From a bacterium (lineage in GTDB: Bacteria; SAR324; XYD2-FULL-50-16), in the NCBI GenBank assembly GCA_018829445.1, contig JAHJTV010000030.1:1-64000 (forward strand): DNA of 64,000 bases. The letters run 5' to 3'. How positions within the stretch are numbered: position 1 is the first letter of the stretch; each line of letters starts with the position of its first letter. Under the pieces are notes generated by a model. That model was given only the letters and a program-made list of their open reading frames with translations. It had not been told where the DNA came from and did no database searches. Both the position numbers and the translations under genes were made by a program. Shown piece by piece: positions 28,745 to 45,747 of the stretch.

Positions 28745-29234
28745 CGGTTATCGAATAGTCAGAGATTAAAACCTGAAGTGCAAAAAACTGTTTACCGCAG
28801 AAAATCAACAAGAAGATAATAGAGGCTGGCAGTTAATATTGACTTGTTTTGGTGAAAACTTATTCAATTCGCGTAAAATAATAAAAATAATTATATGTAT
28901 CGTGATTATATGAGCCAATATTGCCTGTTGTCAATAAGTTAACGTCACTCTGCCGAACTAAGCCCTTTGAGTATGGAAACAGTTTTAACTTTGGAACAGG
29001 TTTTATTTCTACAAATTGATTTAAGATGAGTTCAGACTTTCTCATCCATCGTTTTATACGAAAGCATCCTGGTAATAGAAGCCTATAAAGAACAATTGAC
29101 GGAATTCACAAGTTTATTTAAAATTCATATAATATATATCTTATATAAGACATAAAATTTTGTTAGCCTCGGATAGTCTCACATATCTGGGGACGAATGT
29201 GTATGATAAATTACAATAACGGAAGGTGAAACGG
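28745..29234. other. Intergenic region upstream of sulfolactate genes
   Basis: 490 bases, AT-rich, with no supported gene. It must hold divergent promoters for the MATE gene and the slcC operon. The GntR-type palindrome at 29139-29150 is the only clear regulatory element. Confidence 0.5.
29139..29150. promoter_or_regulatory. GntR operator 1 (slcC operon)
   Basis: Perfect palindrome TCTTATATAAGA flanked ATA..CAT, about 85 bases before the slcC start. Identical 12-mers occur at 34537, 40936 and 42340. Confidence 0.75.
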
Positions 29235-30161
29235 ATGAAGAAAATAGTGATTACCGAATTTATGGATGAAACTGCTGTTGAAAGTTTAAGATCGGAATTT
29301 GATGTTCTTTATGATCCGACACTGGTTGATCGTATGCAGGATTTGGAACGGTGCCTGGTTGAAGCGGATGCCATTATTATCAGGAACAGAACTCAAGTCA
29401 GAGGAGAACTACTTAAAAAAGCCAGAAAGCTAAAAGCTGTGGGGAGACTTGGTGTCGGACTCGATAATATCGACATGCAGGCCTGTCAGATACGGGGAAT
29501 TGATGTTTTTCCGGCAACCGGCGCCAATGACGAAGCAGTGGCTGAATATGTGATTACCGTCGTCCTGATGCTGTTCAGACGGGCCTATTTTTCCTTTGAA
29601 GCGATGACAAAGGGAGAATGGCCCAGAACCGAACTGATGGGATGTGAAACATCCGGTAAACTGATGGGACTGGTAGGGTATGGTGGTATCGCCAGGGAGA
29701 CTGCCGTCAGGGCAAAAGCACTCGGAATGGAAGTGATCGCTTTTGATCCGTTTTTACCGGAGAATCATCCTGCCTGGCAGGGGGTAAAATCGGTTGCCCT
29801 GAATGATCTGTTAAAGCAGGCGGACGTTGTCAGTCTTCATGTGCCTTTGACAGATAAAACCCATCATTTAATCAATGAGAGTGCAATCGGAGAGATGAAA
29901 CCGGGTGCCTTGTTGATCAATGCTGCCAGAGGGGGAGTTGTAGATGATTCAGCGTTGATTGCTGCCTTAAAGTCCGGCCGCTTGGGGGGAGCTGCCTTGG
30001 ATGTTTATGAAAATGAGCCCTTAAGTAACGACTTAGGTAAAGAAATGGTCGGATTAAAGAACCTGATTCTCACCCCCCATATAGCAGGAGTCACCGTTGA
30101 GTCTAATGTGCGTGTCAGCGCTGTTACCGCTGAAAATATCAGACAAGTACTGGGGGATTAA
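29235..30161 (+). CDS. slcC: (S)-sulfolactate dehydrogenase, SlcC-like
   Basis: 308 residues of the D-2-hydroxyacid dehydrogenase / SerA type. The N-terminus (ITEFMDETAVESL) and the central EWPRTELMGCE region resemble SlcC of sulfolactate degraders. The NAD-binding loop is GLVGYGGIARE. Catalytic Arg lies in NAARGG, Glu in YENEPL and His in LTPHIAG. Known SlcC oxidises (S)-sulfolactate to sulfopyruvate with NAD. The ATG at 29235 is chosen because GGAAGG lies eight bases upstream; a GTG at 29226 is in frame. comC starts 3 bases after its stop. A plain phosphoglycerate dehydrogenase role is unlikely next to comC and suyAB. Confidence 0.82.
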   Translation: MKKIVITEFMDETAVESLRSEFDVLYDPTLVDRMQDLERCLVEADAIIIRNRTQVRGELLKKARKLKAVGRLGVGLDNIDMQACQIRGIDVFPATGANDEAVAEYVITVVLMLFRRAYFSFEAMTKGEWPRTELMGCETSGKLMGLVGYGGIARETAVRAKALGMEVIAFDPFLPENHPAWQGVKSVALNDLLKQADVVSLHVPLTDKTHHLINESAIGEMKPGALLINAARGGVVDDSALIAALKSGRLGGAALDVYENEPLSNDLGKEMVGLKNLILTPHIAGVTVESNVRVSAVTAENIRQVLGD

Positions 30162-30163
30162 TC

Positions 30164-31177
30164 ATGCCTGAAATAAGGAAGACAATCGAGGAATTGACGG
30201 AGCTGGTAGCAACTGTTTTGGTTTCCCACAACGCATCCGAAGACAACGCCCGGCAAGTGGCTATTGCCTTAATAGCGGCTGAAGTTGAAGGCCAAAAAGG
30301 GCACGGGGTGTCAAGGGTAGCCTCCTATTCTGCTCAGGCAAAAAGCGGAAAGGTGAATGGCTTTGCCATTCCGGAAGTTATCAAAGTAGCTGATGCCGCT
30401 ATCAGGGTGGATGCAAAACACGGGTTTGCTTTTCCCGCTTTTTCAGCAGCAATCGAAACCTTGACAGATCTGGCATCAAACAAGGGAATAGCAGCGGCGG
30501 TTATCACCCAATCGCATCATTGCGGCATGCTGGGATATCATGCTGAAAAACTGGCACAGAAAGGATTGATCGCCCTGGTTTTTTCAAACAGCCCCAAGGC
30601 AATAGCTCCCTGGGGAGGAAACCAGGCCGTGTTTGGCACCAATCCCATTGCCTTTGCAGCCCCCAGGGCAAACAGCGAGCCTCTGGTGATCGACCTTTCT
30701 CTCTCGAAAGTGGCAAGAGGAAAAGTGAAAATGGCATATGAAAACAATCAATCGATTCCAGAAGGGTGGGCTTTGGACAAGGATGGCAAAACCACTACCG
30801 ATGCCGCTGCTGCCCTGTCGGGAACAATGGTGCCCATGGGAGAGGGTAAGGGTTCTGCATTGGTGTTGATGGTCGAGATTCTGGCTGCCGCCTTGAGTGC
30901 CTCCCATTTTGGCTTTGAAGCCTCATCCTTTTTTACGGCGGATGGACCCGCACCTGACATCGGACAATTGATGATCGCAATTTCCCCGGGACCGCTTTCC
31001 GCTAACCTGTATTTTAATAGAATTGAAGCTTTAATTGCTGCCATTTTAGGGCAAGAAGGAACCCGTTTACCCGGGTCAGCCAGAGCTGAAAAATGGGAGG
31101 AAGCAAGAGCAAATGGAATAAAAATTGGAGATCAGCTGTTCAGCAACTTGTTGAAACTCAGAAATAACCCTTTATGA
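30164..31177 (+). CDS. comC: (R)-sulfolactate dehydrogenase, ComC-like (Ldh_2 family)
   Basis: 337 residues of the malate/L-lactate dehydrogenase-2 family, a fold unrelated to Rossmann lactate dehydrogenases. GQKGHGVSRV near the N-terminus, SHHCGMLGYHAEKLA with the catalytic His, and APWGGNQAVFGTNPIAFA for NAD(P) binding are visible. Characterised ComC interconverts sulfopyruvate and (R)-sulfolactate. Coupled to slcC with a 2-base gap. The two enzymes together would change (S)- to (R)-sulfolactate through sulfopyruvate, the form SuyAB needs. Confidence 0.82.
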   Translation: MPEIRKTIEELTELVATVLVSHNASEDNARQVAIALIAAEVEGQKGHGVSRVASYSAQAKSGKVNGFAIPEVIKVADAAIRVDAKHGFAFPAFSAAIETLTDLASNKGIAAAVITQSHHCGMLGYHAEKLAQKGLIALVFSNSPKAIAPWGGNQAVFGTNPIAFAAPRANSEPLVIDLSLSKVARGKVKMAYENNQSIPEGWALDKDGKTTTDAAAALSGTMVPMGEGKGSALVLMVEILAAALSASHFGFEASSFFTADGPAPDIGQLMIAISPGPLSANLYFNRIEALIAAILGQEGTRLPGSARAEKWEEARANGIKIGDQLFSNLLKLRNNPL

Positions 31178-31239
31178 AGTATAAGATTAAACCATTCAAA
31201 AAAGCCCCAGTTTTATTCCCAACTTTAAGGAGCGATTAG

Positions 31240-33147
31240 ATGCCAGAAAAAAAACCTTCGATCAAGCCGTTTGGTTACAACGGAAAAATCCTGCATGTTG
31301 ATTTATCAAACAAAACCTGGCATGTGGAGGAACCGAGTGAAAAATGGTACCGCACCTACGTGGGTGGTTCATCCATGGCATCTTATTATCTTTTAAAAGA
31401 GCTAAAACCAGGGGTTGATCCATTGTCTGCAGAAAATGTGCTGGTTTTTGCCTGCAGTGTATTAACGGGGGCACCCCTGTCCGGGTTCAACCGGTTTACA
31501 GTGGCCGCAAAATCGCCCCTCTCCCATGGTTTCGGGGAAACCGAAGCCGGAGGATTTTGGGGGCCGGAACTTAAGTTCTCCGGGTTTGACGGGATAGTGA
31601 TAAAGGGGAGGGCAGATAAACCGGTTTATCTCTGGATTAACCAGGGAAAGGTGGAAATTCGGGACGCCGCTCACTTATGGGGAAAGGACAACTGGCAAAC
31701 CAAAGAGATAATAAGGGAGGAGCATGGTGATAAAAGAATCCGTATGGTTTCGATTGGACAAGCCGGGGAAAACCTGGTCAGGTTTGCCAATGTTCAGCAC
31801 GAAATGGCTCATTTCAATGGACGCACCGGGATGGGCGCTGTCATGGGGGCTAAAAACCTGAAGGCAATTGCGGTGCGAGGCAAGGGAAAAATGATCTTGG
31901 CTGATGCAGAAAAGGTCAGGGAGATCGGCCGTTGGCATAACGAGCGCATAAAATCACACCCCTCCAACATTAATCTCACCAAGTTCGGAACCACCTTTCA
32001 AGTCTCTGTTCTCAACCATACTGGTATGCTGCCTACCCATAATTTCAGAGATGGAGTCTTTGCCGGTGCTCATAAAATCAACGAGGTAACCTACCACGAT
32101 ACTATTTTTCATTCACGGGGAACCTGCTATGCCTGTTCGGTAAAGTGCAAGCGAGAAGTTTCCAAAGATGATGGTAAGTATCTTCTGGATCTGCGCCATG
32201 GAGGTCCGGAATATGAAACCTTGGGAACCCTGGGGTCCATGTGTGAAATTGATGATTTGGCAGCCATTGCCAAAGGGAATCAAATCTGTGGGTTAACCGG
32301 AATGGATACCGTGGCTGCTGGTTGTGTTGTCGCATTTGCCATGGAATGCTATGAAAAAGGGATTTTGACAAAAGAGGATACGGGGGGAAAGGCGATCCGA
32401 TTTGGTAATGCCGATGCCATGATCTGGTTGCTGGAACAGATGGCAATCCGAAAAGGGATCGGGAAAACCCTGTCCGAAGGTGTTAAAAGGGCTGCGGAAA
32501 TCATTGGCAATGGGGCAGACAGGTATGCTTTCCATATCAAGGGAAGTGAATTGCCGGCTCATGACGGACGAGGAAAAACAGCAATGGCTATGGGCTATGC
32601 TCTATCAGCCACCGGGGCTGATCATGTAGAATGCCCGCATGACACGGCTTTCGCAGCCAATATCTCACCATTGAACCCTGTCGGGTTGCTGGATACGGTT
32701 GAACCTCTGATCAACGATTATAACAAGGTGCGATATTTTTCCATTGGTCAGAGAGTCTGGGGGATTAACAATTGTTACGGAATCTGTAATTTCTGTTCGG
32801 TTCCCATCCATGCCATGGATTTTGATCATCTGGTCAAAACCGTTAATGCAGTCACAGGTTGGCAAACCAGTCTTTTTGAGATCATGAAGGTTTCCGAACG
32901 ATCTATTACCATGTCCAGGGTGTTCAATAACAGGGAAGGATTCGGACCTGAAGACGACCGGGTAATCCGGCGCTGGCATGAAGGATTTAAAGAGGGTGCT
33001 CTCAAGGATAAACCGATTGATCGGGATTCTTTCAGAAAAGTTATTGACCTTTACTATGAAGTATCAGGCTGGAATGCTGAAGGAAGCCCTACCACCGGTA
33101 AACTGATTGATCTTAATCTCGACTGGCTGATTGAGGAAGCAGTGTAA
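31240..33147 (+). CDS. Aldehyde:ferredoxin oxidoreductase family (candidate sulfolactaldehyde oxidoreductase)
   Basis: 635 residues, full AOR length. The N-terminal tungsto/molybdopterin domain starts KILHVDLSNKTW and holds SHGFGETEAGGFWGPELK. The [4Fe-4S] ligands are Cys296, Cys299 and Cys303 (CYACSVKC), with a fourth near Cys516 (YGICNFC). Family members oxidise aldehydes to acids and reduce ferredoxin. Third gene after slcC-comC (63-base gap, TAAGGAG ribosome binding site). No NAD-dependent aldehyde dehydrogenase is present in the locus, so I infer that this enzyme oxidises sulfolactaldehyde to sulfolactate. That substrate would be new for the family. Confidence 0.85.
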   Translation: MPEKKPSIKPFGYNGKILHVDLSNKTWHVEEPSEKWYRTYVGGSSMASYYLLKELKPGVDPLSAENVLVFACSVLTGAPLSGFNRFTVAAKSPLSHGFGETEAGGFWGPELKFSGFDGIVIKGRADKPVYLWINQGKVEIRDAAHLWGKDNWQTKEIIREEHGDKRIRMVSIGQAGENLVRFANVQHEMAHFNGRTGMGAVMGAKNLKAIAVRGKGKMILADAEKVREIGRWHNERIKSHPSNINLTKFGTTFQVSVLNHTGMLPTHNFRDGVFAGAHKINEVTYHDTIFHSRGTCYACSVKCKREVSKDDGKYLLDLRHGGPEYETLGTLGSMCEIDDLAAIAKGNQICGLTGMDTVAAGCVVAFAMECYEKGILTKEDTGGKAIRFGNADAMIWLLEQMAIRKGIGKTLSEGVKRAAEIIGNGADRYAFHIKGSELPAHDGRGKTAMAMGYALSATGADHVECPHDTAFAANISPLNPVGLLDTVEPLINDYNKVRYFSIGQRVWGINNCYGICNFCSVPIHAMDFDHLVKTVNAVTGWQTSLFEIMKVSERSITMSRVFNNREGFGPEDDRVIRRWHEGFKEGALKDKPIDRDSFRKVIDLYYEVSGWNAEGSPTTGKLIDLNLDWLIEEAV

Positions 33148-33276: not shown

Positions 33277-34329
33277 TTACTTGGTGTCAATGGCATATGC
33301 CGCGTCAATCTGTCTTTCACAAGCCTTGATATGGTCGTTGAGCTGATCCAGAGCCTTGGTTCCATACTTGTCCGTAAACCATTTTCTCATGGGGGCAACG
33401 GCATCCTGAAACATTTTCTTTTCAGCTGCTGTCGGGACATAAATTGTACCACCACTCTTCTTGAACTCTTCGTACGCAGAAATCTGTCTTCTTTTTGGAT
33501 AAGCTCTCACAACCTGACGCAGGTTGATAAAACCGTCCACAACCACTTTTCTTAAATCCAAAGGCAGCGATTGAAACAAATTATCGTTCATCATCCATAA
33601 AGCAGCCATGTAGGCATGTCCATCCAGTGTCATATATTTAATATGTTCATGGAATTTCATCCCAACGATATCAGTGATTCCATTCTTGGAGCCTTCAACA
33701 ACACCGGTTGCCAGTGAAGTGTAGACTTCTGCCCAGGCTATTCCGGTCGGGTTCCCGCCCAGCAATTTTACCATCTCAATCTGGATGTCGGAATTGATGG
33801 TTCGTAGCTTTTGCCCTTTCACATCGTCAGGAGTTCTGATCTGCTTTTTAACCGTGGCGAAATTTCTCCAGCCACCGGTGTTTCCGATTACCATCAGGCG
33901 AACATTCTTCAGCTTTTTCAAAACATCTCTTCTGAGTTCTTCAACATATGGCCCATCAAAAACACATTCTGCTGTCCTGTCATCCCGAAACATATAGGGG
34001 AGGTCCAGAACCTGTGCTTCCGGATAAAGATTACTAAATCCACCAATTGTTGTAATGTACACTTCCAATATACCAGCTTGTATGGATTCCATACACTCAC
34101 GGGCATTACCGCAAAGCTGGGTTCCGGGATAGATCTCGACCATGATCTGACCATTGGAGTGGGATTCAACAAAGTCCTTGAAAACCATGGCACCATCATA
34201 ATCTTCGTCGGCCATGTTGGCATTATGTACAATTTTAATGGTGTACTTCGCAGCCATTGCCGGCGTGGTTACAATAAATAAAGCGATTGTGATAAAGATC
34301 CCAACCAACAGTATCCAACGTTTTTTCAT
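33277..34329 (-). CDS. dctP: TRAP transporter periplasmic solute receptor (DctP type)
   Basis: 350 residues with a signal peptide (1-26, FIVTTPAMA-AK). It has the DctP fold markers: YPGTQLCGNARECMESIQAG, DVKGQKLRT and an Asn/Arg-lined acid-binding region. The ATG follows AGGAGGACAAG, an optimal ribosome binding site. It delivers an organic acid or sulfonate to the DctQM permease. Encoded last on the minus strand, with its own operator-bearing 330-base leader, so it can be expressed more strongly than the permease. Ligand may be sulfolactate, DHPS or a sulfoquinovose derivative; sequence alone does not decide. Confidence 0.9.
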   Translation of the reverse strand: MKKRWILLVGIFITIALFIVTTPAMAAKYTIKIVHNANMADEDYDGAMVFKDFVESHSNGQIMVEIYPGTQLCGNARECMESIQAGILEVYITTIGGFSNLYPEAQVLDLPYMFRDDRTAECVFDGPYVEELRRDVLKKLKNVRLMVIGNTGGWRNFATVKKQIRTPDDVKGQKLRTINSDIQIEMVKLLGGNPTGIAWAEVYTSLATGVVEGSKNGITDIVGMKFHEHIKYMTLDGHAYMAALWMMNDNLFQSLPLDLRKVVVDGFINLRQVVRAYPKRRQISAYEEFKKSGGTIYVPTAAEKKMFQDAVAPMRKWFTDKYGTKALDQLNDHIKACERQIDAAYAIDTK

Positions 34330-34658
34330 CTTGTCCTCCTTTTTGTGTTAAAAATAAAACACTTAATTAATACATTAACTCTCATTTTTAAACCCTGCGT
34401 TTTTAATCTCTTCGCCGTTTCCTCCTTTTGATAGTGTTATGATGAGACGGTCTGAAAATTGCGGCCCATCCGTCTGTGGTAAAAAAATAGCAGTGATTCT
34501 CCATCATTAAATATGTCTTAAGTAATTCAGTATATATCTTATATAAGACAAAAAACAAAAAATCTACTCATTCACCACTTTTATTTGATTCACTGTTCAA
34601 GCAAATCTTATGGTGATCAAGATAGGTGTATCGAGAAACACAGCTGAATGGTCACAAC
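34330..34658. other. Leader of the TRAP receptor gene
   Basis: No gene. It holds the GntR palindrome at 34537 and a weaker half-site ATATGTCTTAAG at 34511-34522. The distance of about 200 bases to the start suggests a long 5' untranslated leader. Confidence 0.5.
34537..34548. promoter_or_regulatory. GntR operator 2 (TRAP receptor)
   Basis: Perfect palindrome TCTTATATAAGA flanked ATA..CAA upstream of the DctP gene. A degenerate half-site lies 26 bases away. Confidence 0.75.
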
Positions 34659-35852
34659 TCAGATTAAGTCCCTGATCTTCACTGGCAGTCCTTGTTTTGC
34701 CGATTTTTCTGCTGCCGCTCCGACAACAATAGACCAGAAACCTTCTTCCACCGTTGCAGTGTCGGTTTGTAAGCCTTTTATGTTATCAATAAACTTGATG
34801 TGTTCATAATAGGTGGCGCCATTATGTCCACCGGCCTCGATATAGGTCGGATAGTAAGGCGTGGAGACACGAGACGGGTTCCCTTCTCCCCGCATGATCT
34901 CCAGGCTGGTTTTGAGTCTGGGACCGGGAAGATAATCTTCACACTCCCAAGCTTTTAACCTTCCTTCGTTTCCGCAGAGTACAATCTCCTCGTAGAACAT
35001 GGGGGCAAACATACAGAGATTAAAACTGGCGCGGATGTTGTTCTCATAGATGACGGTGACAAAAGCGTTATCAAGAATATCCGATTTCCTCTTTTCATGC
35101 TCAAATTCCAGGAAGTTAACTGCCATGCTTCCACTGGCGTATACTTCCACTGGTTTGGATTGAGCGAACAGGTTCATCAGGTCGAAATAGTGACAGCATT
35201 TTTCCACCAGGGTTCCCCCGGAGAACCGGGAGAATTTATTCCATTGACTGACTTTATCCAAAAAAGGTAAGCGGTGTTCCATGATACTGATCAGTTTGAT
35301 ATCGCCAATGGATTTGCGTTTGAGTCCTTCGTAGATGGCTTCGATGTACATGGCCTTGTAGCGATATTGCAGCCCGATTTGAAAAACAGCTTTGTAATCG
35401 TTGGCAATTCTTGTTATCTCTGCTGCGTCTGGGATGGTGGTTGCCATTGGTTTTTCCAGCAGGATATGTTTTCCTGATTGGGAGGCAATCCTGACGACAT
35501 CAATATGGGTATAATTTGGAGTGCAGATGATCAACCCATCAACTTCCGGATCATTACACGCCTTTTCCAGAGAATCATATACAATCAGATCCTGGCCGGG
35601 GGCCATCATGGCAAAGGTCTGCTTTGCCGTTTCCACACTCTGGGGATTTGGATCATAAACTCCACGCACGGTGGCTCTTCCTTCAAGGATCGTAATTCGA
35701 ATGTGCTCCTGCCCCATAATTCCGGTGCCAATAATATTGAACTTGTATTCCGGTTTTTCCACCTGGCTGAGGTAGCGATCTTCATCTGGGATATAATTAA
35801 AAATGGAGCTGGTGGAAAAAAACCGACTTCTAATCTCTTTTCCTTTTTTCAT
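34659..35852 (-). CDS. Gfo/Idh/MocA-family NAD-dependent protein (candidate sulfoquinovosidase)
   Basis: 397 residues. The N-terminal Rossmann domain has FNIIGTGIMGQEHIR, and HILLEKPMATT is the family's EKP loop. The C-terminal alpha/beta domain holds GGTLVEKCCHYFDLM, where Lys and His are catalytic in the family. Most members are sugar dehydrogenases. NAD-dependent sulfoquinovosidases with this fold (GH188) are known at the gateway of sulfoquinovose pathways, and the neighbours make that role plausible. It sits directly after the TRAP permease gene (28-base gap) in the same operon. A dehydrogenase acting on a sulfosugar is the alternative. Confidence 0.8.
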   Translation of the reverse strand: MKKGKEIRSRFFSTSSIFNYIPDEDRYLSQVEKPEYKFNIIGTGIMGQEHIRITILEGRATVRGVYDPNPQSVETAKQTFAMMAPGQDLIVYDSLEKACNDPEVDGLIICTPNYTHIDVVRIASQSGKHILLEKPMATTIPDAAEITRIANDYKAVFQIGLQYRYKAMYIEAIYEGLKRKSIGDIKLISIMEHRLPFLDKVSQWNKFSRFSGGTLVEKCCHYFDLMNLFAQSKPVEVYASGSMAVNFLEFEHEKRKSDILDNAFVTVIYENNIRASFNLCMFAPMFYEEIVLCGNEGRLKAWECEDYLPGPRLKTSLEIMRGEGNPSRVSTPYYPTYIEAGGHNGATYYEHIKFIDNIKGLQTDTATVEEGFWSIVVGAAAEKSAKQGLPVKIRDLI

Positions 35853-35880: not shown

Positions 35881-37170
35881 TTATGTTGAAAAGCCAAGTA
35901 AGTGGGGAATAAATAAAGTCAACTGTGGAAAAAACGTTATCAAAAAAATAACGGCCACTTCCACTGCCAGAAAGGGTAAGATCTCCACGGTAATTCGTTC
36001 AATGCTCTCCTTGCTTAAACTGGCGGCTACAAATAAGACCAATCCCATGGGGGGAGTGGCGAGCCCTACGGTAACATTCACACACATGACAACGGCAAAA
36101 TGAAGTGGGTCGACTCCCATGCTGGTGACGACCGGTCCCAGAATAGGTCCCAGGATTAAAATTGCTGGACCTGCATCCAAAAACATGCCAACGATAAACA
36201 GCAGGATGTTGATCAAAAAGAGCAGTATCATCGGGTTGTCACTCACAGAAATAACTGCATTGGTTATATATGCCGGTGTGCCGGATAAGCTGACAATTGA
36301 GGAAAATGAGACTGCAGCCCCTACCAGAAAGAGAATCACACCAGAGGAGATAGCAGATTCCCGTAATACTGCGGGTAAATCCTTGAATTTCAAGGATCGG
36401 GTCACAAAAAGACTGATGATCAAAGCATAACCGGCTGCCACGGCAGCAGCTTCAGTCGGGGTAAAAACGCCGGTTAGTATTCCGCCAATTAAAATAACAG
36501 GGGTCAGCAACGGCCAGAATGCTTCCTTGGTGGCCACTGCACGTTCTTTGAAGGTCGCTCTCCTGTTGGCCACTGGGTAGCCTCGTCTTTTGGAAATATA
36601 CCAGGTAACAGACATCAAGCCCACTCCCACCAGAAGACCGGGTACCATGCCAGCAGCAAATAATCCTCCCACAGATACGTTCATGACAAAGGCATATAGA
36701 ATCATAAGTCCACTGGGAGGGATAATGGGGCCGATCACCGATGAGGCGGCTGTGATGGCTGCTGAAAATTTTCGGCTATACCCGTTTTTCTCCATTGCCG
36801 GAATCAGCATGGATCCAAGAGCGGAGGTATCAGCGACAGCGGATCCGGATAACCCTGCAAAAAGAATACTGGAAAGAATGTTCACCTGGGCTAGCCCACC
36901 GCGGACATGCCCAATTAGAGCCTTGCTGAAATTGACCAGATTCTGGGTGATTTTTCCGGCGTTCATGATCTCCCCTGCCAGAATAAAAAAGGGAACAGCC
37001 ATCAGAGGGAAGCTATCGATTCCATTATAAAGTCTTTGCACCAAAAGGGTTAAAAAGATATCCCTCCCTTCAACCATCAGGCTGATGCCCGGGGCTAAAA
37101 TTAAAGCAAAGACTATGGGAAGCCCCAGTATCATAAAAGCCAAAAACAACCAGAAAAACAGTAATGACAT
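35881..37170 (-). CDS. dctM: TRAP transporter large permease (DctM type)
   Basis: 429 residues, about 12 membrane helices. The conserved SILFAGLSGSAVADTSALGS region and IIPPSGLMILYA mark the DctM channel domain. It moves the substrate with sodium or proton gradient, together with DctQ and DctP. ATG follows AGGAGTCATC. DctQ ends 8 bases upstream, and the Gfo/Idh/MocA gene follows. Confidence 0.92.
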   Translation of the reverse strand: MSLLFFWLFLAFMILGLPIVFALILAPGISLMVEGRDIFLTLLVQRLYNGIDSFPLMAVPFFILAGEIMNAGKITQNLVNFSKALIGHVRGGLAQVNILSSILFAGLSGSAVADTSALGSMLIPAMEKNGYSRKFSAAITAASSVIGPIIPPSGLMILYAFVMNVSVGGLFAAGMVPGLLVGVGLMSVTWYISKRRGYPVANRRATFKERAVATKEAFWPLLTPVILIGGILTGVFTPTEAAAVAAGYALIISLFVTRSLKFKDLPAVLRESAISSGVILFLVGAAVSFSSIVSLSGTPAYITNAVISVSDNPMILLFLINILLFIVGMFLDAGPAILILGPILGPVVTSMGVDPLHFAVVMCVNVTVGLATPPMGLVLFVAASLSKESIERITVEILPFLAVEVAVIFLITFFPQLTLFIPHLLGFST

Positions 37171-37715: not shown

Positions 37716-37842
37716 GGTAATTCCTTGTCTCTGTTGATCCATATTGAACGCTATGCCCGCTTAGCTTGGCTGAACTCGCTCTAAACAGGCTGTGGAATCC
37801 GAATTTCCCCGGTTTTGTCTAATCCATCACTGGAGAAATCTG

Positions 37843-37884: not shown

Positions 37885-39051
37885 TTAGGCACTTCGATAG
37901 AGCTTGGTCAGCACAAACTCCCGATGTCCAAGCACTTCAGCAGCGGTCAATCTGCCATTGCAGACCCGCAGCATCATCTCCAACAACACATCCCCGGCTT
38001 GGTCAATGTTCATTTCCCGTTGCAGAATGCCGGATACATCGACATCGACATGTTCTCCCATAGTACGGACAGTCCTGGGATTTGCAGTCAATTTAATAAC
38101 CGGTTCGATGGGGTTCCCGATGATGTTACCCTGACCGGTGGGAAAAAGATGAACCACATAGCCAGCAGCTGCCTGAAGAGTCACACATTCTGCTGCTGCG
38201 GACGAGGTATCCATGTAATAAAGCCCCGCTCCCTTTTTGGGTTCTTCAGCCGGTTCCAGCACATCGATATACTTGGATTCCCGACCGATTTTCTGGATGT
38301 TTCCAAAGGCTTTTTCTTCGATGGTTGTCAATCCCCCCTCGATGTTTCCCTTGGTGGGCTGGGAGTCTGACAGGTCGTTTGTCTTGCATTCAAGGATGAA
38401 ATTGTTGTAGGCTGTCCAGGTTTTTTTGAATTTTTCACCAATCTCGGGTGAAATCGCCCGTTGGACCACAACATCTTCCGCTCCGGTGATTTCGGAGGTT
38501 TCGCCAAAACAGGTCGTGGCTCCCATGGCATTCATCTTATCAACCACATTTCCAACGGTTGGATTGGAAGCCAGTCCGGAGGTAGTGTCGGACTCACCGC
38601 ATTTGACAGACACCCATAGCTCGGAAACATTGCATTCTGTTCGTCTCAATTCCGATGCCCAGTGCACGTACTCCTTGGCTTTTCGTGAAGCTCTGGCAAT
38701 GGTTTCGATATCACCATGCTGTTCAATGGAAAAGCCGGTAACGGGTTTACCGGTTTCCCTGATTCCCTCCACAATGCGGTTAGTCCAGCCCGGCTCGATC
38801 CCAATCACAATCACTGCCGCTACATTGGGATTTTTTCCTGTTCCGATTATTGTTCTGAAAAAAAGTTCCAGATCCTCGCCAAACTGTAGTCGCCCATAGG
38901 CGTGAGGCAGAGCCAGAGTTCCTTTGATGTTGTGGGCAACGGCTTCACAGGCCGAGTTGGAAAGATCGTCCAGGGGAAGAATCACGACATGATTGCGAAT
39001 TCCCACTCGTCCATTTTCTCTTCTGAATCCCCAAAATGTTTTATCTGTCAT
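37885..39051 (-). CDS. suyB: (2R)-sulfolactate sulfo-lyase, beta subunit
   Basis: 388 residues of the UxaA/altronate dehydratase C-terminal family. The sequence follows SuyB closely as I know it: [57 protein letters not shown] and [15 protein letters not shown]. Conserved cysteines and Asp/Glu around KCGESD likely bind iron. With SuyA it eliminates sulfite from (R)-sulfolactate, giving pyruvate. The start at 39051 directly follows the suyA stop (TAG-A-ATG), with GAGGTGG inside suyA as ribosome binding site. Altronate dehydratase is rejected because of these specific matches and the sulfolactate neighbours. Confidence 0.93.
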
Positions 39052-39052
39052 T

Positions 39053-39340
39053 CTACCACCTCTTCGTTTTGACGTTATGGACATGAACATGATCGCCCTT
39101 TTTAATATCTGACACTACCTTTCCAATATCATAGCCGTATTTTAAAATAGTGCCTCCGTTTGCGATGTTTTCAAGCGCAATTTTATGTCCCAGGGGGATA
39201 TCTTGGTTTGCCTTGACAACGATGGTCTCGTCCCTATCCATGACCCAGCCTGTTAACTCACAGCCGGCAGTTGCAGTTTCGACAACAACCACACCCACAG
39301 AATCAGTGCTGTCATGAACTAAAAAATGTGTTTCACTCAT
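39053..39340 (-). CDS. suyA: (2R)-sulfolactate sulfo-lyase, alpha subunit
   Basis: 95 residues, a single SAF domain. Hallmarks: [41 protein letters not shown] and the C-terminal [10 protein letters not shown], which match SuyA. Small partner of SuyB; the two are separate polypeptides, as in known sulfolactate degraders. It follows the GPH symporter gene by 29 bases on the minus strand and is translationally coupled to suyB. Confidence 0.93.
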
Positions 39341-39369
39341 AAAAACTCCTTAAAAAATACTTAAAATAG

Positions 39370-40833
39370 CTACAATCCTGAATAAAGATTCTCATAAGGG
39401 ATGCCTGTTATACTTTCGCAAGTCTCCCTGGTTTTTAGGTCTACATCCTTTTTATCGCCTCCACTCTTTAATCGTTCAATCTCTTTTGTCAAAATGGCAT
39501 GGGCCTGTGGTGTTACTTTGAAACCAAAGGCGATCAATATTCCCAGCAGGATCAAAATAGACGGCCCCAGAAAGAGAAACAGTTTTAAGCGGAACATCAC
39601 TTCAAGGGTTTGTTCCTGGTTGGATTGAAAACCGATAGTCTGCAATACAAAACCTATCACCGGCATGGCAACGATACCCTGGACAAATTTGCGAACCAGC
39701 GTCATTGCCCCTGAATAGACACCTGATCGTTTTTGGGTGGTAATCAATTCATCCACATCAATGATGGACGGGAGTATTGCCCAGGGAATCATCACCCCGG
39801 CCGATGTTCCCAATCCGATGACACCGCAGATGATTGCAACCAGCCAGACAGGAGTTGCGGGGGTCATGAAAAACGTCAGCAACATACCGACCAACCAGAT
39901 AAAAAGTCCGATAATGTACGATCGCCCCTTTCCTTTGCGATTGGATAAAAAAACATACAGGGGGAAAGCGGCAATCTGTACAATAAGCAAAGATCCCATG
40001 GCGATGGGATAAATCTGGGGTTTGCCGATATAATAAGTGATATAGTAGGCAAACAGAGCCATAAGAATATCGATGGCGGTATAGGAGAAAATATACATCG
40101 CTATATGGATTCGGAAAGAGCGATTACGGAAAATAGTGGCAAAATGGGAAAAGATCGCCAGCCCTTCTTTTCGATCCTGGTGCCCCGATTCATAGGGCAG
40201 TTCCCAGGTTCCCAGGAAAACAATAATCCAGGGTAGAGAAAACAAAGCCCCGAAAAAAAACGACATTACCAGATATCCCATGGCCGGATTCGAAGAGTAT
40301 TGATCTATGATCACTTTGGGTAGGGTGCCTCCCAACAGAGAAGCCACCCCGGAGAAGATTAAACGGGCTCCTGATAATCGGGTTCTCACTTTGTATTCAT
40401 GGGACATTTCAGCATTAAGTGCGGCGTAGGGAACCATAACCATCGTAAAAACGGTGCTGAAAAGAATATAAGCAAGACTGTAATAAACAAACAGGGCCGC
40501 ATCGGATTCAAATTTTACCGGAACCCACATGAGCACAAAAGTAATGGCAATAGGAATAATGCCAATCAAAAAGAAGATCCTGCGTCTTCCAAAACGAGAC
40601 TTGGTGCGATCGGAGATATACCCCATCAAAGGATCGGAAATGGCATCCCACACTTTGCCGATGGCAAAAACAAATCCCGCTAAAACCGGCGAAAGCCCGA
40701 TGACCTCCGTTAAATAAAACATGAACAGCATGCCGATGATGAGAAAGGATCCTCCTCCGTAAAGATCCCCCAGGCCATAAAATATCAGATGGGGCAGTCT
40801 TACCTTTTTTGATTTGCTGTCTGTAGTCTTCAA
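39370..40833 (-). CDS. GPH-family (glycoside-pentoside-hexuronide) sugar symporter, YihO/YihP-like
   Basis: 487 residues with 12 predicted helices. FYGLGDLYGGGSF and GKVWDAISDPLMGYISDRT followed by RFGRRR are the GPH signature, as in MelB and the sulfoquinovose importers YihO/YihP. It should import a sugar or glycoside, here most likely sulfoquinovose or its glyceryl glycoside, with a cation. The frame begins with TTG at 40833; no in-frame ATG lies near. First gene of the minus-strand operon leading into suyAB, 100 bases behind a perfect GntR palindrome. Confidence 0.88.
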   Translation of the reverse strand: MKTTDSKSKKVRLPHLIFYGLGDLYGGGSFLIIGMLFMFYLTEVIGLSPVLAGFVFAIGKVWDAISDPLMGYISDRTKSRFGRRRIFFLIGIIPIAITFVLMWVPVKFESDAALFVYYSLAYILFSTVFTMVMVPYAALNAEMSHEYKVRTRLSGARLIFSGVASLLGGTLPKVIIDQYSSNPAMGYLVMSFFFGALFSLPWIIVFLGTWELPYESGHQDRKEGLAIFSHFATIFRNRSFRIHIAMYIFSYTAIDILMALFAYYITYYIGKPQIYPIAMGSLLIVQIAAFPLYVFLSNRKGKGRSYIIGLFIWLVGMLLTFFMTPATPVWLVAIICGVIGLGTSAGVMIPWAILPSIIDVDELITTQKRSGVYSGAMTLVRKFVQGIVAMPVIGFVLQTIGFQSNQEQTLEVMFRLKLFLFLGPSILILLGILIAFGFKVTPQAHAILTKEIERLKSGGDKKDVDLKTRETCESITGIPYENLYSGL

Positions 40834-40935: not shown

Positions 40936-40947
40936 TCTTATATAAGA
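40936..40947. promoter_or_regulatory. GntR operator 3 (symporter-suyAB operon)
   Basis: Perfect palindrome TCTTATATAAGA flanked ATG..TAT, about 103 bases before the symporter start. Confidence 0.75.
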
Positions 40948-41314: not shown

Positions 41315-42040
41315 ATGGTTACTTCTTCGACGTTAAACTATCAGCCTTTATATAAACAGATAAAATCGCTGATTTTGCAGAGGGTGATTGATGGTATCTG
41401 GGCCCCCGGATCTGCACTACCCAGTGAACAACAGTTGGCAAAAGAGTTCGGAGTCAGCCAGGGAACCATTCGCAAAGCCCTGGATGAAATGACGGCAGAG
41501 AATATATTTGTCAGAAAGCAAGGGAAGGGCACATACGTTTCCCAACATTCCGCCAATCGATCATTGTTCCATTTTTTCTACATTGTCAGCAATGATGGCA
41601 AACGCGTCATGCCGGACAGCAGAGTGATTAGTGTGATTCGGTCAACGGCCAATAAGGGGGAAATTGAACGGTTGGATCTCAAGCAGGGTGAGAAAGTTGT
41701 TCGCTTGAAACGAATCAGGCTGTTGAATAAAAAACCGGTTATCGTTGAACATATTTCCCTGGCAGTTAAGATGTTCAGCGATTTTGGGAAAAAAGAGGAT
41801 ATTCCCAATACCTTGTATGAGTTGTATGAATCACAATATGATGTCAGGGTGATGAAGGCAGTGGAAAAGCTTCGGGCTGTGAAGTTAAAAAAAGAGGATG
41901 CCATTCACCTGGAGTTACCAGAAGGAACACCGGTGCTGGAAATTGATCGCACTGCTATTTCGCTGGATCAACGGCCTGTTGAATGGCGGTTGAGTTACAT
42001 TGACACTCAAAACTATTTTTATCTTTCGGAGCTGACGTAA
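41315..42040 (+). CDS. GntR/HutC-family regulator of the sulfosugar locus
   Basis: 241 residues. The N-terminal winged helix (about 8-75) contains LPSEQQLAKEFGVSQGTIRK and RKQGKGTYVS, typical of GntR. The C-terminal UTRA effector domain (about 90-235), with EKVVRLKRIRLLNKKPVIVE and DRTAISLDQRPVEWR, places it in the HutC group, whose ligands are often sugar phosphates. It lies in the middle of the locus, and TCTTATATAAGA palindromes precede four surrounding units. It is probably a repressor released by a pathway intermediate such as a sulfosugar phosphate. Known sulfo-EMP clusters use a DeoR regulator (YihW), so this control is different. Confidence 0.9.
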   Translation: MVTSSTLNYQPLYKQIKSLILQRVIDGIWAPGSALPSEQQLAKEFGVSQGTIRKALDEMTAENIFVRKQGKGTYVSQHSANRSLFHFFYIVSNDGKRVMPDSRVISVIRSTANKGEIERLDLKQGEKVVRLKRIRLLNKKPVIVEHISLAVKMFSDFGKKEDIPNTLYELYESQYDVRVMKAVEKLRAVKLKKEDAIHLELPEGTPVLEIDRTAISLDQRPVEWRLSYIDTQNYFYLSELT

Positions 42041-42076
42041 TTTTGCTCTGGCTGTCGGCGAATAGCACCATGATTG

Positions 42077-42127: not shown

Positions 42128-42339
42128 GCAGGATGGGCTGGCTGAGCTGATGCAAATAACTTCAAAACAGTTGTTTGATGCTGAAAAATTAGATTTAAAA
42201 AGAAAGTTTTGCCTGCCCATGCTGAAACGGCATCCGCGGGAGCACAAAATACGTGCCAATCCGACAACATTTTTTTGAAAACCCAAGATGTGTATCTATA
42301 AGCAAACAGCTAAATGGAAGGAGTTAATCGCCAAGTAAA
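42128..42339. other. Intergenic remainder before kinase operon
   Basis: No gene supported. A 60-residue frame across 42096-42278 overlaps the terminator and lacks a ribosome binding site. Confidence 0.4.
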
Positions 42340-42351
42340 TCTTATATAAGA
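42340..42351. promoter_or_regulatory. GntR operator 5 (kinase-aldolase-isomerase operon)
   Basis: Perfect palindrome TCTTATATAAGA flanked AAA..CAT, only 38 bases before the kinase start, so it probably overlaps the promoter. Confidence 0.75.
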
Positions 42352-42389
42352 CATTATATACAAAATATAACTATTTTTCTGATTTAAGA

Positions 42390-43286
42390 ATGAAAAAAAT
42401 CATCTGTCTGGGAATAGCCGTTCTGGATCAAATCTTTACACTGTCTGAATTACCCGCAAAGTCTGGAAAGTATTTCGCGGAGAATTATCTGGAAGTGGGT
42501 GGGGGACCTGCCGCAACTGCTGCTGTAACCATTGCCAGACTTGGAGGACAGGTGGAATTTTGGGGTCGAGTTGGTGATGATGGCGTTGGGAATCGGATCA
42601 TTAGTGAATTAAAGGGGTATGGGGTTGACGTATCACAAGTCAGAAGGATTGCGCATGCTCAGTCTTCTGTATCCGTGGTGCTGGTGGATCAAACAGGGGA
42701 ACGGTTAATCGTGAACCGGGCCAATTCAGGTCTTGACAGCGATCCATCCTGGCTGCCATTGGAACGGTTAGCGGATTGCAGTGCTGTGCTGGTGGATTCA
42801 AGATGGATTGAAGGAGCGCGTTTACTCCTAAGGCAGGCAAAGCTAGCTGAAATCACATCTGTCCTGGATGCGGATAGCACTCCGGATCATGACATCTCTG
42901 ACCTGGTTAAGATGGCGAGCCATATTGCCTTTTCAAAAAGCGGGTTATTTGAAGTCAGCAAGGAAAGAGATTTTAAAAAGGCATTAGATCGAATCAACCG
43001 GAACTCAGAGGGTTGGGTCTGTGCAACCAGGGGCGATAAAGGAACCTTCTGGATTGACGAAGGGAAACTAAGACAGGTGCCTGCATTTAGAACAGAGGTG
43101 GTAGATACTTTGGGAGCCGGAGATGTTTTCCACGGGGCTTTCGCATTTGCATTGACCGAGGGTATGAATCCGGAGAAGGCTATCAGGTTTTCCAATGCAG
43201 CGGCTGCCCTGAAATGCAGAAAACTGGGTGGCCGGGCCGGGATTCCTGACAGAAGGGAAGTTGAAGACTTAATTAATAGAGGATAA
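42390..43286 (+). CDS. PfkB-family sugar kinase (candidate sulfofructose kinase)
   Basis: 298 residues. The N-terminal sugar site is GGGPAATAAVTIARLGG. The C-terminal PfkB signature VDTLGAGDVFHGAFAFAL carries the catalytic Asp in GAGD. This fold includes 6-deoxy-6-sulfofructose kinases (YihV, SqiK). The gene is followed at once (2-base gap) by a LacD/YihT-type aldolase and then a sugar isomerase, the order expected for a sulfo-EMP route. I infer phosphorylation of 6-deoxy-6-sulfofructose at C1. Another hexulose kinase cannot be excluded from sequence alone. Confidence 0.85.
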   Translation: MKKIICLGIAVLDQIFTLSELPAKSGKYFAENYLEVGGGPAATAAVTIARLGGQVEFWGRVGDDGVGNRIISELKGYGVDVSQVRRIAHAQSSVSVVLVDQTGERLIVNRANSGLDSDPSWLPLERLADCSAVLVDSRWIEGARLLLRQAKLAEITSVLDADSTPDHDISDLVKMASHIAFSKSGLFEVSKERDFKKALDRINRNSEGWVCATRGDKGTFWIDEGKLRQVPAFRTEVVDTLGAGDVFHGAFAFALTEGMNPEKAIRFSNAAAALKCRKLGGRAGIPDRREVEDLINRG

Positions 43287-43288
43287 TC

Positions 43289-44332
43289 ATGGAATTAACA
43301 GCGGGAAAATTGTGGTGTTATCGACGTCTGGCCGATGAAAATGGTATTTTTAAAATGACGGCTGTGGATCAGAGGCCGCCGATCATGAACCTGGTAAAGG
43401 ATAAAATCGGGGTCACTGAAGCAAATTATAAAGATGTGGCAGCTGTAAAAGCATTGCTTACAAAAACTCTGGCACCCTGTTCCACAGCAATGCTGCTGGA
43501 TCCGATCTGGGCTTATCCCAATGCGATCCAATATGTTAACCCGGGCCAGGGATTGCTGCTTACTCTTGAAGCTCATAACTTTGTCGATACCAAAAATGGG
43601 CGACTCTCGTCCGAGATTGTTGACTGGAGTGTTGAAAAAATCAAGAGAATCGGGGCAGATGGAGTTAAGTTTTTGTCCTGGTATCGCCCCGATGCAGATC
43701 CTTCGGTTTGCGAACAACAACAGAATCTGGTGGAAAAAATTGGGAAGGCTTGCAAACGCTTTGATATCAGTTTTCTGCTGGAGCTTCTGGTTTATCCTTT
43801 ACCAGGCGACAGCAATCAGACAACAGATTATATTGAACATGCGTCCAAACATCCGCAAAACGTGGTGGATTCCTTGAAGGCTTTTGCCGATCCGCGGTTT
43901 GGAGTTGATATCTTTAAACTGGAAAGTCCCGTTCCCGGGAGAGCTGTTCCTTCGCCCGAGTCTGCAGAGTCTGGTCAATGCCAGGAGTGGTTTGACAAGC
44001 TGGGTGAAATCTGTCAGGTCCCCTGGGTGATGTTAAGTGCGGGTGCTGATATGGCGACCTTTAAAAACATCCTGACCTATGCCTATAGAGCTGGTGCCAG
44101 TGGATACTTGGCAGGACGGGCTATCTGGTGGGAAGCGGCACAGCAATTTCCCGATTTGGGTTCCATGGAGGAACAGCTGGTGAAAAAGGCTGTTCCCTAT
44201 GCAAGAGAAATAGGAGATCTTACGGTGAAAAATGCAACTCCGTGGTTCAGAAACAAAGCGTTTGCTGACGGCATCAATCTGTCAGGATTTGGAGAGACTT
44301 TTCCGGCCGAATACCGGGCATTGAATAACTAG
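43289..44332 (+). CDS. LacD/YihT-type aldolase (candidate sulfofructose-1-phosphate aldolase)
   Basis: 347 residues of the class I tagatose-1,6-bisphosphate aldolase family. TAVDQRPPIMNLV near the N-terminus and GADGVKFLSWYRPD form the phosphate site. VDIFKLESPVPG contains the predicted Schiff-base lysine, Lys210. YihT and SqiA of sulfoglycolysis belong to this superfamily and split sulfofructose-1-phosphate into DHAP and sulfolactaldehyde. It is tightly coupled to the kinase gene and 21 bases before the isomerase. Role inferred from family and from suyAB, slcC and comC in the same regulon. Confidence 0.85.
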   Translation: MELTAGKLWCYRRLADENGIFKMTAVDQRPPIMNLVKDKIGVTEANYKDVAAVKALLTKTLAPCSTAMLLDPIWAYPNAIQYVNPGQGLLLTLEAHNFVDTKNGRLSSEIVDWSVEKIKRIGADGVKFLSWYRPDADPSVCEQQQNLVEKIGKACKRFDISFLLELLVYPLPGDSNQTTDYIEHASKHPQNVVDSLKAFADPRFGVDIFKLESPVPGRAVPSPESAESGQCQEWFDKLGEICQVPWVMLSAGADMATFKNILTYAYRAGASGYLAGRAIWWEAAQQFPDLGSMEEQLVKKAVPYAREIGDLTVKNATPWFRNKAFADGINLSGFGETFPAEYRALNN

Positions 44333-44353
44333 AACATAAAAGGGGTGGATATA

Positions 44354-45697
44354 ATGAAAAGCAGAAAACCGGTGATTGGAGTAGCCAACCTGGCACGAAC
44401 GACATTTGATATTCCATTTGCAGAATCAAAGGCCGGTCAAGCCTGGGTGAGCTTGAATTCCCTTGATGCCGTCATAATTGGAAGTCAAGAGCTGTTGTGT
44501 GATGGTGAAGCAGTGCAAAAAACGATTGCATACTTCAAAAAGCAAAAACCGGATATTCTGTTGATCATTCAGGTTACTTTTACCGATGCCATGATGACGG
44601 TGGAATTGGCCCGACAGCTTCAAATTCCCACCTTTATCTGGTCATTTCCGGAACCGAGAGAGGGTGGCAGACTTAGATTGAACTCTTTTTGCGGTCTAAA
44701 TCTGGCAGCTCATGCCATGGGAAAAGCGGGTATCGAAATTGAATATACTTATCAACCGGCCGATAGCCCTTCAGCTGTAAATAAGATTTTCGGTTTTGCC
44801 AGGGCGGCTTTGACAGTGCAGCAGATCTCTGAAAGTCGCTTACTGGTCATCGGACAGCACCCTGACGGGTTTGATACCTGTGTATATGATAAAGCGGATT
44901 TAAAAAACTGGTGTGGGGTTGAAGTGGATCAGACCGATCTGATGACTTTCCTGGAGCAGGTGCCCTCTATTCCCGATGAAGAGATGATGGAAGTTCACCG
45001 GCAACTGAATTCTCAGGTGGTTAATCTTGCAGAGATGGAGGAAGACCCCTTAAAACTTAGCCTAAAAGTCTATCTGAGCCTGAAAAGGACTGCTATCGAC
45101 AGTCAATATGACGGATTAGCAGTCAGGTGCTGGCCAGAGTTTTTTACGGAACTGGGGTGCGCTGCCTGTGGTGCCATGTCCATGATGAATGAAGATCGGA
45201 TACCCTGTGCCTGCGAAGCAGACCTGTACGGCGTTTTAACCTCATTGATGCTGCAGATTCTAAGCGATTCCCCGGTTTTCCTCTCAGATCTGGTTGATAT
45301 AGATACTGAAGACAATACAGGCGTTTTCTGGCATTGCGGATTAGCCCCTTTATCCATGGCCGATCCCGATAAGGAGGTCAGAGCCCAGATTCATACCAAT
45401 CGTAAAAAACCATTTCTTTACGAATTCACCTTGAAGCCAGGCCGAATTACTTTTGCTCGCATTAGTCAATCACAGCATGAAAGAAAAATCATTATTGGAG
45501 CAGGTGAAGTGATTGCGGCACCCATGAGCTTTACAGGTACCTCCGGGGTGGTGCGGTTTGATTCTCTGGCAGCAGATGTATTGGATGCCGTCATCAACCA
45601 AAAACTGGAGCACCACTTCTCCCTGGTTTATGGAGACTATCGTGCAGAGTTGATCGCCGTCGCCAAGATGCTCAAAGTCCCCGTTGAACTGATTTAA
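44354..45697 (+). CDS. Fucose/arabinose-isomerase-fold protein (candidate sulfoquinovose isomerase)
   Basis: 447 residues from the ATG at 44354, which has AGGGG eight bases upstream; a GTG at 44345 is also in frame. The N-terminal Rossmann-like part (DILLIIQVTFTDAMMTVELA, FIWSFPEPREGGRLRLNSFC) and the C-terminal part with PCACEADLYGVLTSL (metal-ligand Glu) and VFWHCGLAP (His) fit L-fucose/L-arabinose isomerase-like proteins. Sulfoquinovose isomerases of this fold (SqvD/SftI type) are known in variant sulfoglycolysis, whereas YihS is a different fold. Last gene of the operon, followed by a terminator. Role: sulfoquinovose to 6-deoxy-6-sulfofructose, inferred. Confidence 0.82.
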   Translation: MKSRKPVIGVANLARTTFDIPFAESKAGQAWVSLNSLDAVIIGSQELLCDGEAVQKTIAYFKKQKPDILLIIQVTFTDAMMTVELARQLQIPTFIWSFPEPREGGRLRLNSFCGLNLAAHAMGKAGIEIEYTYQPADSPSAVNKIFGFARAALTVQQISESRLLVIGQHPDGFDTCVYDKADLKNWCGVEVDQTDLMTFLEQVPSIPDEEMMEVHRQLNSQVVNLAEMEEDPLKLSLKVYLSLKRTAIDSQYDGLAVRCWPEFFTELGCAACGAMSMMNEDRIPCACEADLYGVLTSLMLQILSDSPVFLSDLVDIDTEDNTGVFWHCGLAPLSMADPDKEVRAQIHTNRKKPFLYEFTLKPGRITFARISQSQHERKIIIGAGEVIAAPMSFTGTSGVVRFDSLAADVLDAVINQKLEHHFSLVYGDYRAELIAVAKMLKVPVELI

Positions 45698-45701
45698 AAA
45701 C

Positions 45702-45747
45702 TAGCTTGAGTTAGCAAGGTTCTGCCATTCTAATCTCAAGCTATTTT
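45702..45747 (+). terminator. Terminator of the kinase-aldolase-isomerase operon
   Basis: TAGCTTGAG (45702-45710) and CTCAAGCTA (45735-45743) arms followed by TTTT. Confidence 0.7.

Follow-up and report, generated by a model that had tools for sequence, protein, structure and literature searches.

A GntR-linked gene cluster of a SAR324 bacterium predicted to convert sulfoquinovose to dihydroxyacetone phosphate, pyruvate and sulfite

The window analyzed in this study is a stretch of 64,000 nucleotides from contig JAHJTV010000030.1 of the genome of an uncultured SAR324 bacterium (assembly GCA_018829445.1, here G000; 7.67 Mb, 122 contigs, 93% complete, no 16S gene found in it). Between 29.2 and 45.7 kb it contains 14 open genes in the order slcC-comC-aor (+), dctP (-), gph-suyA-suyB-dctQ-dctM-gfo (-), gntR (+) and pfkB-aldolase-isomerase (+). 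Gene families were assigned with Pfam and NCBIfam, and every family named in an initial annotation of the sequence was recovered as an open reading frame (14/14 genes). The cluster probably constitutes one GntR-controlled regulon which takes sulfoquinovose (SQ) and its glycosides to dihydroxyacetone phosphate (DHAP), pyruvate and sulfite in one cell. All enzyme activities and substrates named below are predictions.

The clustering of the 14 genes is not a matter of chance, because related genomes keep most of them together. The same-genus genome G046 has 13 of the 14 in one cluster (62-90% identity), lacking the gene for aldehyde:ferredoxin oxidoreductase (AOR), and the sister SAR324 genome G032 has 11 (48-82% identity; no AOR, Gfo or GPH gene in the 20 kb covered). 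Genome G047 showed only the GntR, isomerase, Gfo, AOR, ComC and SlcC genes in the 30 kb covered; kinase and aldolase were not found there. For a broader comparison the best 80 of 233 loci encoding a relative were used. Counts over these 80 loci are lower bounds, and many of the loci are cut by contig ends. Isomerase, kinase, aldolase and SuyB occur together (at least 35% identity) in 14 of them. Of these full clusters, 12 additionally encode SlcC or ComC, and SAR324 contributes two to the 14 (L024, L096). Isomerase and SuyB without the kinase were found in 10/80 loci, all assigned to Chloroflexi, Chloroflexota, Anaerolineae or Anaerolineales. In the cluster of another SAR324 genome, G039, the kinase match is split across two reading frames (L018:14006-14901).

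Comparison of the intergenic regions of the cluster revealed an exact 12-bp palindrome, TCTTATATAAGA. It is present in four copies in the window, all intergenic and within the cluster: upstream of slcC (29139..29150), upstream of dctP (34537..34548), between gph and gntR (40936..40947) and upstream of pfkB (42340..42351). The start coordinate given for the regulon in the initial annotation, 29139, is the first base of the first copy. In 100 shuffles of the window the palindrome was never obtained (mean 0.00, maximum 0), and a search of the window allowing one mismatch yielded no additional site. G046 (L013) carries the four sites at the identical four places and G032 (L016) has the copy upstream of pfkB. 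Provided that gph to gfo are transcribed together, each gene in the cluster lies downstream of a palindrome copy. Among the 80 related loci (1.27 Mb covered) a GntR gene (at least 35% identity) is present in 22. The palindrome accompanies it in 20 cases and is absent from all 58 loci without such a gene. The corresponding Fisher p value of 6.5e-17 is uncorrected for kinship; in several Gammaproteobacteria the bases flanking the palindrome are common to them as well. Of the two GntR loci without the exact palindrome, L057 has two sites with one mismatch and L034 has none at up to one mismatch. The 12-bp core is identical in the 35 sites compared because only exact matches were selected; their flanks vary. 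One further match in genome G000 is located inside an HdrA-like coding frame (L106).

The regulator itself (41315..42040, +) possesses the GntR and UTRA domains (PF00392 and PF07702) of the GntR/HutC class, and the palindrome stands upstream of its presumed target genes; binding is predicted. The palindrome core corresponds to the center of the SdhR palindrome published for the HutC subfamily (PMC4494728). Thus, the two systems share an identical 12-bp core and a GntR-UTRA regulator. They differ in the neighboring genes, which are sulfosugar genes here, and the GntR protein of the window is likened to SdhR by domains and box only. It is predicted that the GntR protein controls the cluster through the palindrome, presumably as a repressor. 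The assumption of one regulon around the gntR gene, already made in the initial annotation, is therefore strongly backed by the four exact sites and by their co-occurrence with GntR genes. The box is known as such; its presence at sulfosugar genes across phyla is new, and no publication on this box together with sulfoquinovose was recognized among the matches listed. The cross-phylum operator could guide the search for additional regulon members in other genomes. The isomerase gene is followed in the same orientation by a FadD-like acyl-CoA ligase gene (45849-47777) that has no operator; fatty acids would be set free from sulfolipid as well. This gene and a MATE gene located before slcC were excluded as regulon members, since palindrome sites occur only at the four places named.

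In the proposed pathway the sulfosugar would be imported through the TRAP (tripartite ATP-independent periplasmic) transporter and the GPH (glycoside-pentoside-hexuronide) symporter. The former is encoded by dctP (33277..34329, -; PF03480), dctM (35881..37170, -; PF06808) and dctQ (37179..37742, -; PF04290), the latter by gph (39370..40833, -; TIGR00792, 234 bits, cut-off 231). SQ would then be isomerized to sulfofructose by an SqvD-like isomerase and phosphorylated to sulfofructose-1-phosphate by a YihV-like kinase. A class I aldolase would cleave this intermediate into DHAP and sulfolactaldehyde.

The PfkB-family kinase (42390..43286, +) is most closely related in the PDB to the E. coli sulfofructose kinase (7ag6, 1e-78), followed by 2rbc, a sugar kinase whose substrate is not stated (7e-55), and by ribokinases from 3e-29. 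It is a kinase of the YihV type known from the sulfo-Embden-Meyerhof-Parnas (sulfo-EMP) pathway. For the predicted sulfoquinovose isomerase (44345..45697, +) the best model was NF048012, sulfoquinovose isomerase, with 297 bits. This score lies below the cut-off of 700, and the enzyme consequently represents a distant branch. Its AlphaFold2 model (pLDDT 86.8) retrieved arabinose isomerases at rank 1 (E 5e-25) and fucose isomerases lower. The protein is not a YihS-type isomerase; it combines a fucose isomerase C-terminal domain (Fucose_iso_C) and the SqvD/SftI model with a predicted arabinose/fucose isomerase fold. The family was detected in 7/52 SAR324 genomes at E ≤1e-20. Second, distant isomerase relatives (26-28% identity) are encoded at G000:C97:110280-111491 (L012) and in G047:C45 (L011).

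The aldolase (43289..44332, +) belongs to the class I DeoC/LacD family (PF01791, PRK12858) and shares PF01791 with YihT. Among its PDB matches, 8tnf (3e-85) and LacD (2e-42) score above YihT (2e-21). Its sugar is not readable from the sequence, and cleavage of sulfofructose-1-phosphate is a predicted role. Kinase and aldolase were assigned to PF00294 and PF01791, in place of the PfkA-family SqiK and the class II SqiA of the sulfo-EMP2 pathway (families as given in PMC9594981).

SQ would be freed from its glycosides by the Gfo/Idh/MocA protein (34659..35852, -). Its best PDB matches were 8zn9, 8qc3 and 8qc2 (3e-66 to 6e-63), with the next best at 2e-15; 8QC2 is a structure of glycoside hydrolase family GH188 (PMC11465081). 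The SQ contacts of ArSqgA are listed in PMC10755693. In an alignment to 8qc3 and 8qc2, K107, Y136, R166, L170, K172, E189, H193 and H321 of ArSqgA were all found identical in the protein of the window, using a fitted numbering offset of 13; E163 of PMC10755693 falls one place off and is not claimed. The GH188 sulfonate triad R166, L170 and K172 is thereby included, as is the residue contacting the C4-OH of SQ. The motif EHRxPFLxK was present in 21/21 related loci listed (18 distinct contigs). Hence the protein is likely a sulfoquinovosidase of the NAD-dependent GH188 type (SqgA-like), with predicted activity on SQ glycosides. The initial annotation had recognized the family correctly but regarded the protein as a generic oxidoreductase, and so missed this role. 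The G032 cluster includes a GH31 glycosidase gene (L016:8845-11058), for which an alpha-xylosidase model scored above other GH31 models, and no GH188 gene in the stretch covered. Related GH31 genes (at least 35% identity) were found in 25/80 loci.

Downstream of sulfolactaldehyde, the AOR would form (S)-sulfolactate, SlcC and ComC would invert it to (R)-sulfolactate, and SuyAB would cleave the latter into pyruvate and sulfite. An inversion by SlcC and ComC ahead of an (R)-specific SuyAB is the scheme described in PMC9594981 and PMC12421959. The predicted (S)-sulfolactate dehydrogenase SlcC (29226..30161, +; PF02826/PF00389; 66-68% identity in G046 and G047) is followed by the genes for the Ldh_2-type ComC (30164..31177, +; PF02615), a predicted (R)-sulfolactate dehydrogenase, and for the AOR. 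The best NCBIfam model for ComC was the L-sulfolactate dehydrogenase NF040650 with 199.9 bits (cut-off 500). The predicted sulfolactate sulfo-lyase is present in its split form. Its large subunit SuyB (37885..39051, -; start chosen within the longer frame 37885-39090) shows PF04295 and PF20629 and is 90% identical in G046 and 82% in G032, and the small subunit SuyA (39053..39340, -; 95 aa) has a SAF domain (PF08666). SlcC-like, ComC-like and SuyAB genes were all assigned at the family level; at this level SuyAB is located in a sugar cluster, as in extended sulfoglycolysis.

The AOR (31240..33147, +) shows both the N-terminal (PF02730, 7e-79) and the C-terminal (PF01314, 9e-118) domain of the family and has AOR-family relatives in the PDB. 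From gene context and phylogeny it is likely the sulfolactaldehyde oxidase of the cluster. Its electrons would likely be transferred to ferredoxin, where known pathways employ an NAD-dependent enzyme. The slot after slcC-comC is filled by an AOR gene in the window and in G047 (77% identical); in G032 (L016) a gene for a GabD-type aldehyde dehydrogenase follows SlcC-ComC. A second locus of G047 encodes LacI, SuyA, SuyB, DctP, DctQ, DctM, an AOR (67%), a 3-hydroxyisobutyrate-dehydrogenase-type (betaHAD) protein, a short-chain dehydrogenase/reductase (SDR) and an alcohol dehydrogenase, and no GabD-type gene was found in the 20 kb covered. For the betaHAD protein sulfolactaldehyde 3-reductase was the fifth-best family model (2e-42, below cut-off), and DhpA of Desulfovibrio sp. 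DF1 is of the same type (PMC6278857). This locus (L129, G047:C17:43001-63000, about 3.6-14.5 kb) resembles an operon for degradation of 2,3-dihydroxypropane-1-sulfonate (DHPS), with an AOR replacing SlaB. In G045 an AOR (64%) occurs with LacI, TRAP and 74-75% identical copies of the betaHAD and SDR proteins of G047; SuyAB was absent from the 19 kb covered.

In a tree of 22 rows the AORs of the window, of G047:C43, of the G047 SuyAB locus and of G045 formed one clade (100/100), apart from eight GabD-paired AORs of the SAR324 genus g19 and from other paralogs. AORs were detected at E ≤1e-100 in 18/52 SAR324 genomes. Among the 80 related loci one has an AOR of the kind found in the window (L025), and L090 has one of 33% identity. 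A GabD-type gene stands beside the AOR gene in 8/8 fetched neighborhoods of SAR324 f4 g19 (L134 to L141); in L134, the only one checked for it, a sigma-54 activator gene adjoins the pair. The placement of an AOR in the sulfolactaldehyde slot is new, a point which the initial annotation had missed. A literature search on sulfolactaldehyde with ferredoxin oxidoreductase led to the DHPS-induced AOR of Desulfovibrio sp. DF1 (PMC6278857).

Several observations weigh against the pathway as drawn, some of them concerning the oxidation of sulfolactaldehyde. After production in E. coli the AOR of strain DF1 was inactive on sulfolactaldehyde, lactaldehyde and acetaldehyde, and its role is left unclear in the report (PMC6278857); an inactive cofactor state of the recombinant enzyme is conceivable. 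The G046 cluster is without an adjacent AOR (20.0 of 21.9 kb of its contig covered; genome 88% complete), and a 35% identical paralog is encoded elsewhere. A GabD-type gene was seen in six of the 14 full clusters, in one case as a fragment where the contig ends. The other eight lack both GabD and AOR in the DNA covered; two of them are represented by short sequences of 6 and 12 kb. The cluster thus often encodes no enzyme for the oxidation step. The cluster of the window lacks any aldehyde dehydrogenase gene, and no search for a GabD-type dehydrogenase elsewhere in the genome was made. To the same side belong the proximity of the aldolase to LacD rather than YihT, the scores of ComC and isomerase below their curated cut-offs, the predicted function of SuyA and SuyB, which is based on family assignment, and the circumstance that the substrate could be some other sulfosugar.

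These points lend some weight to an account in which regulon and end products are the same and an NAD-dependent dehydrogenase of the GabD/SlaB type, encoded elsewhere, oxidizes sulfolactaldehyde, the AOR being accessory, for example in aldehyde detoxification. It would agree with the inactive DF1 enzyme, which is co-encoded with a working SlaB (PMC6278857), with the missing AOR of G046, with the eight full clusters having neither gene in the DNA covered, and with the GabD-type gene adjoining a more distant AOR in 8/20 AOR neighborhoods, all of genus g19. We nevertheless consider it rather doubtful, given the lack of an aldehyde dehydrogenase gene in the cluster of the window, the position of the AOR in the very slot that GabD fills in G032, and the recurrence of a 67% identical AOR with SuyAB and a DHPS-dehydrogenase-like gene in G047, again with no GabD-type gene in 20 kb. 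As no aldehyde dehydrogenase is encoded beside the AOR, the window represents a direct test of the question left open for the DHPS-induced AOR (PMC6278857). The sulfosugar might alternatively be an epimer such as sulfofucose, degraded via sulfotagatose-1-phosphate and a tagatose-type aldolase. The nearest named relatives of the aldolase are indeed mostly tagatose-bisphosphate aldolases, and PF00294 and PF01791 genes occur in the Paracoccus sulfofucose cluster, not significantly increased there (PMC12421959). An epimer is nonetheless very improbable, with a kinase closest to sulfofructose kinase, an isomerase closest to sulfoquinovose isomerase and a Gfo protein that retains the residue for the C4-OH of SQ. 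The initial annotation had named closest relatives clearly from tagatose or fucose pathways as evidence against its proposal; the closest relatives of kinase, isomerase and Gfo protein are not of this kind, and the aldolase goes halfway toward them. With this reservation for the aldolase, its sulfo-EMP-like pathway joined to SuyAB is supported as a prediction.

The sulfite released by SuyAB would meet a sat-apr-qmo-dsr set, as electron acceptor or as donor. The initial annotation had considered sulfite a possible respiratory acceptor and had proposed a search of the genome for dsrAB; both genes were found. In addition, G000 contains dsrC, dsrM, dsrJ, dsrO, dsrP, a DsrK-like gene, an IscA/DsrR-like gene, aprA, aprB, two HdrA/Qmo-like genes, qmoC and ATP-citrate-lyase-like genes; sat is cut by the covered stretch and below the model cut-off. 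A gene for a PRK12771-type oxidoreductase lies beside dsrAB, and we take it to be dsrL. Two DsrE-family genes stand at C90 (L149) behind two genes which look Hdr-like to the eye, a name that we presume for them. They account for two of four DsrE matches by PF02635.

We lean weakly toward sulfite reduction. Our initial reading, prompted by the lack of DsrD, had been oxidation, and it was changed on account of the missing COX1, the grouping of DsrA and a small protein encoded after dsrB. The heme-copper oxidase COX1 was not found in G000 (control positive in 8/14; cytochrome bd was not searched). In a midpoint-rooted tree of 14 DsrA sequences, no characterized oxidative type among them, a split (100/100) placed the family of the window (f1) together with five Desulfobacterota and opposite two f4 SAR324. 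The small protein is encoded by an 89-aa frame directly 3' of dsrB (L021:10121-10390, G000:C60, minus strand). It is conserved in 6/6 other members of family f1 included (G049, in which the dsrA match is broken, was not included), and no such frame follows dsrB in the two f4 dsr loci. It was predicted to form a winged helix (pLDDT 80). Comparison of the model with DsrD (1wq2) gave rank 22 and a TMt of 0.74, with other winged helices equally good and no match at E <0.001, and the DsrD profile was matched at 0.5% by hhalign. Perhaps the protein is a divergent DsrD, with which the modeled fold is compatible and the sequence profile is not.

Use of sulfite as a donor, oxidized via reverse AprAB-Sat, is a serious possibility, if somewhat short of probable. 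It would fit the lack of DsrD by PF08679, absent in 10/10 dsrA-bearing SAR324 tested and present in 5/5 Desulfobacterota, and the IscA/DsrR-like and putative dsrL genes, the latter name being our assumption, beside dsrAB. Four marine SAR324 metagenome-assembled genomes of the family NAC60-12 have been read as oxidative (PMC10591310), and f4 is possibly another family than theirs; reductive, oxidative and mixed sets are reported for SAR324 in PMC11406059. Besides the three observations in favor of reduction, the absence of a DsrE of the TIGR03012 kind from the genome (control positive in 4/14) argues against oxidation.

SQ, a sulfosugar of plants, is produced in billions of tons annually, and the models described for its degradation under anoxia are cross-feeding pairs (PMC6278857, PMC9594981). 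In its widest form our proposal would be that the tungsten-type AOR of SAR324 oxidizes sulfolactaldehyde in both SQ and DHPS breakdown, yielding reduced ferredoxin, and that one anaerobic cell converts SQ to usable carbon and subsequently respires the sulfite that it has released itself. We regard this combination as unlikely. If true, a single cell would accomplish a task that the known anaerobic co-culture models divide between two organisms. The narrower statement is that the cluster provides a predicted single-cell route for SQ breakdown in SAR324. The phylum is new as host of a sulfosugar cluster: PMC10591310, in the parts available, makes no link between SAR324 and sulfoquinovose, and no SAR324 appeared among the matches listed. 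The joining of sulfoglycolysis to SuyAB is not unique. The initial annotation was right in that both gene sets stand together in one cell, but it overstated their singularity, as published clusters and 14/80 loci demonstrate.

With the sulfo-EMP pathway of E. coli (YihS/YihV/YihT) the cluster shares the expected intermediates, a YihV-related kinase and a class I aldolase. It differs in its SqvD/FucI-like isomerase, which is not YihS-like, and in an aldolase on the LacD side; moreover, sulfolactaldehyde is reduced to DHPS and exported in E. coli, whereas oxidation and desulfonation are predicted here. The sulfo-EMP2 pathway of Bacillus urumqiensis (SqvD, SqiK, SqiA) has the isomerase SqvD, a possible relative of the isomerase of the cluster, which scores below the model cut-off; there the kinase is of the PfkA and not the PfkB family and the aldolase is of class II and not class I DeoC/LacD. 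Sulfo-transaldolase clusters of Thermotogae and Chloroflexi also carry SuyAB, and full use of SQ carbon has been proposed for them (PMC9594981); they employ a transaldolase in place of the kinase, aldolase and AOR found here. Paracoccus combines an SlcC/ComC/SuyAB tail with a sugar half in one bacterium, a tandem coexistence called unusual in the report (PMC12421959), while its sugar half is of the Entner-Doudoroff type and acts on sulfofucose. Degradation of DHPS, not SQ, by Desulfovibrio sp. DF1 likewise involves SuyAB, and an AOR is co-induced with it; SlaB is present beside this AOR (PMC6278857). The actinobacterial GH188 clusters with a Tyr variant (PMC11465081) also comprise GH188, a fucose-type isomerase, sulfofructose kinase, sulfofructose phosphate aldolase, sulfolactaldehyde oxidation, a PGDH gene and, in the Y160 cluster, SuyAB. 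In these actinobacterial clusters, a sulfolactaldehyde dehydrogenase, ABC transport and Tyr take the places which AOR, TRAP/GPH transport and Leu occupy in the SAR324 cluster.

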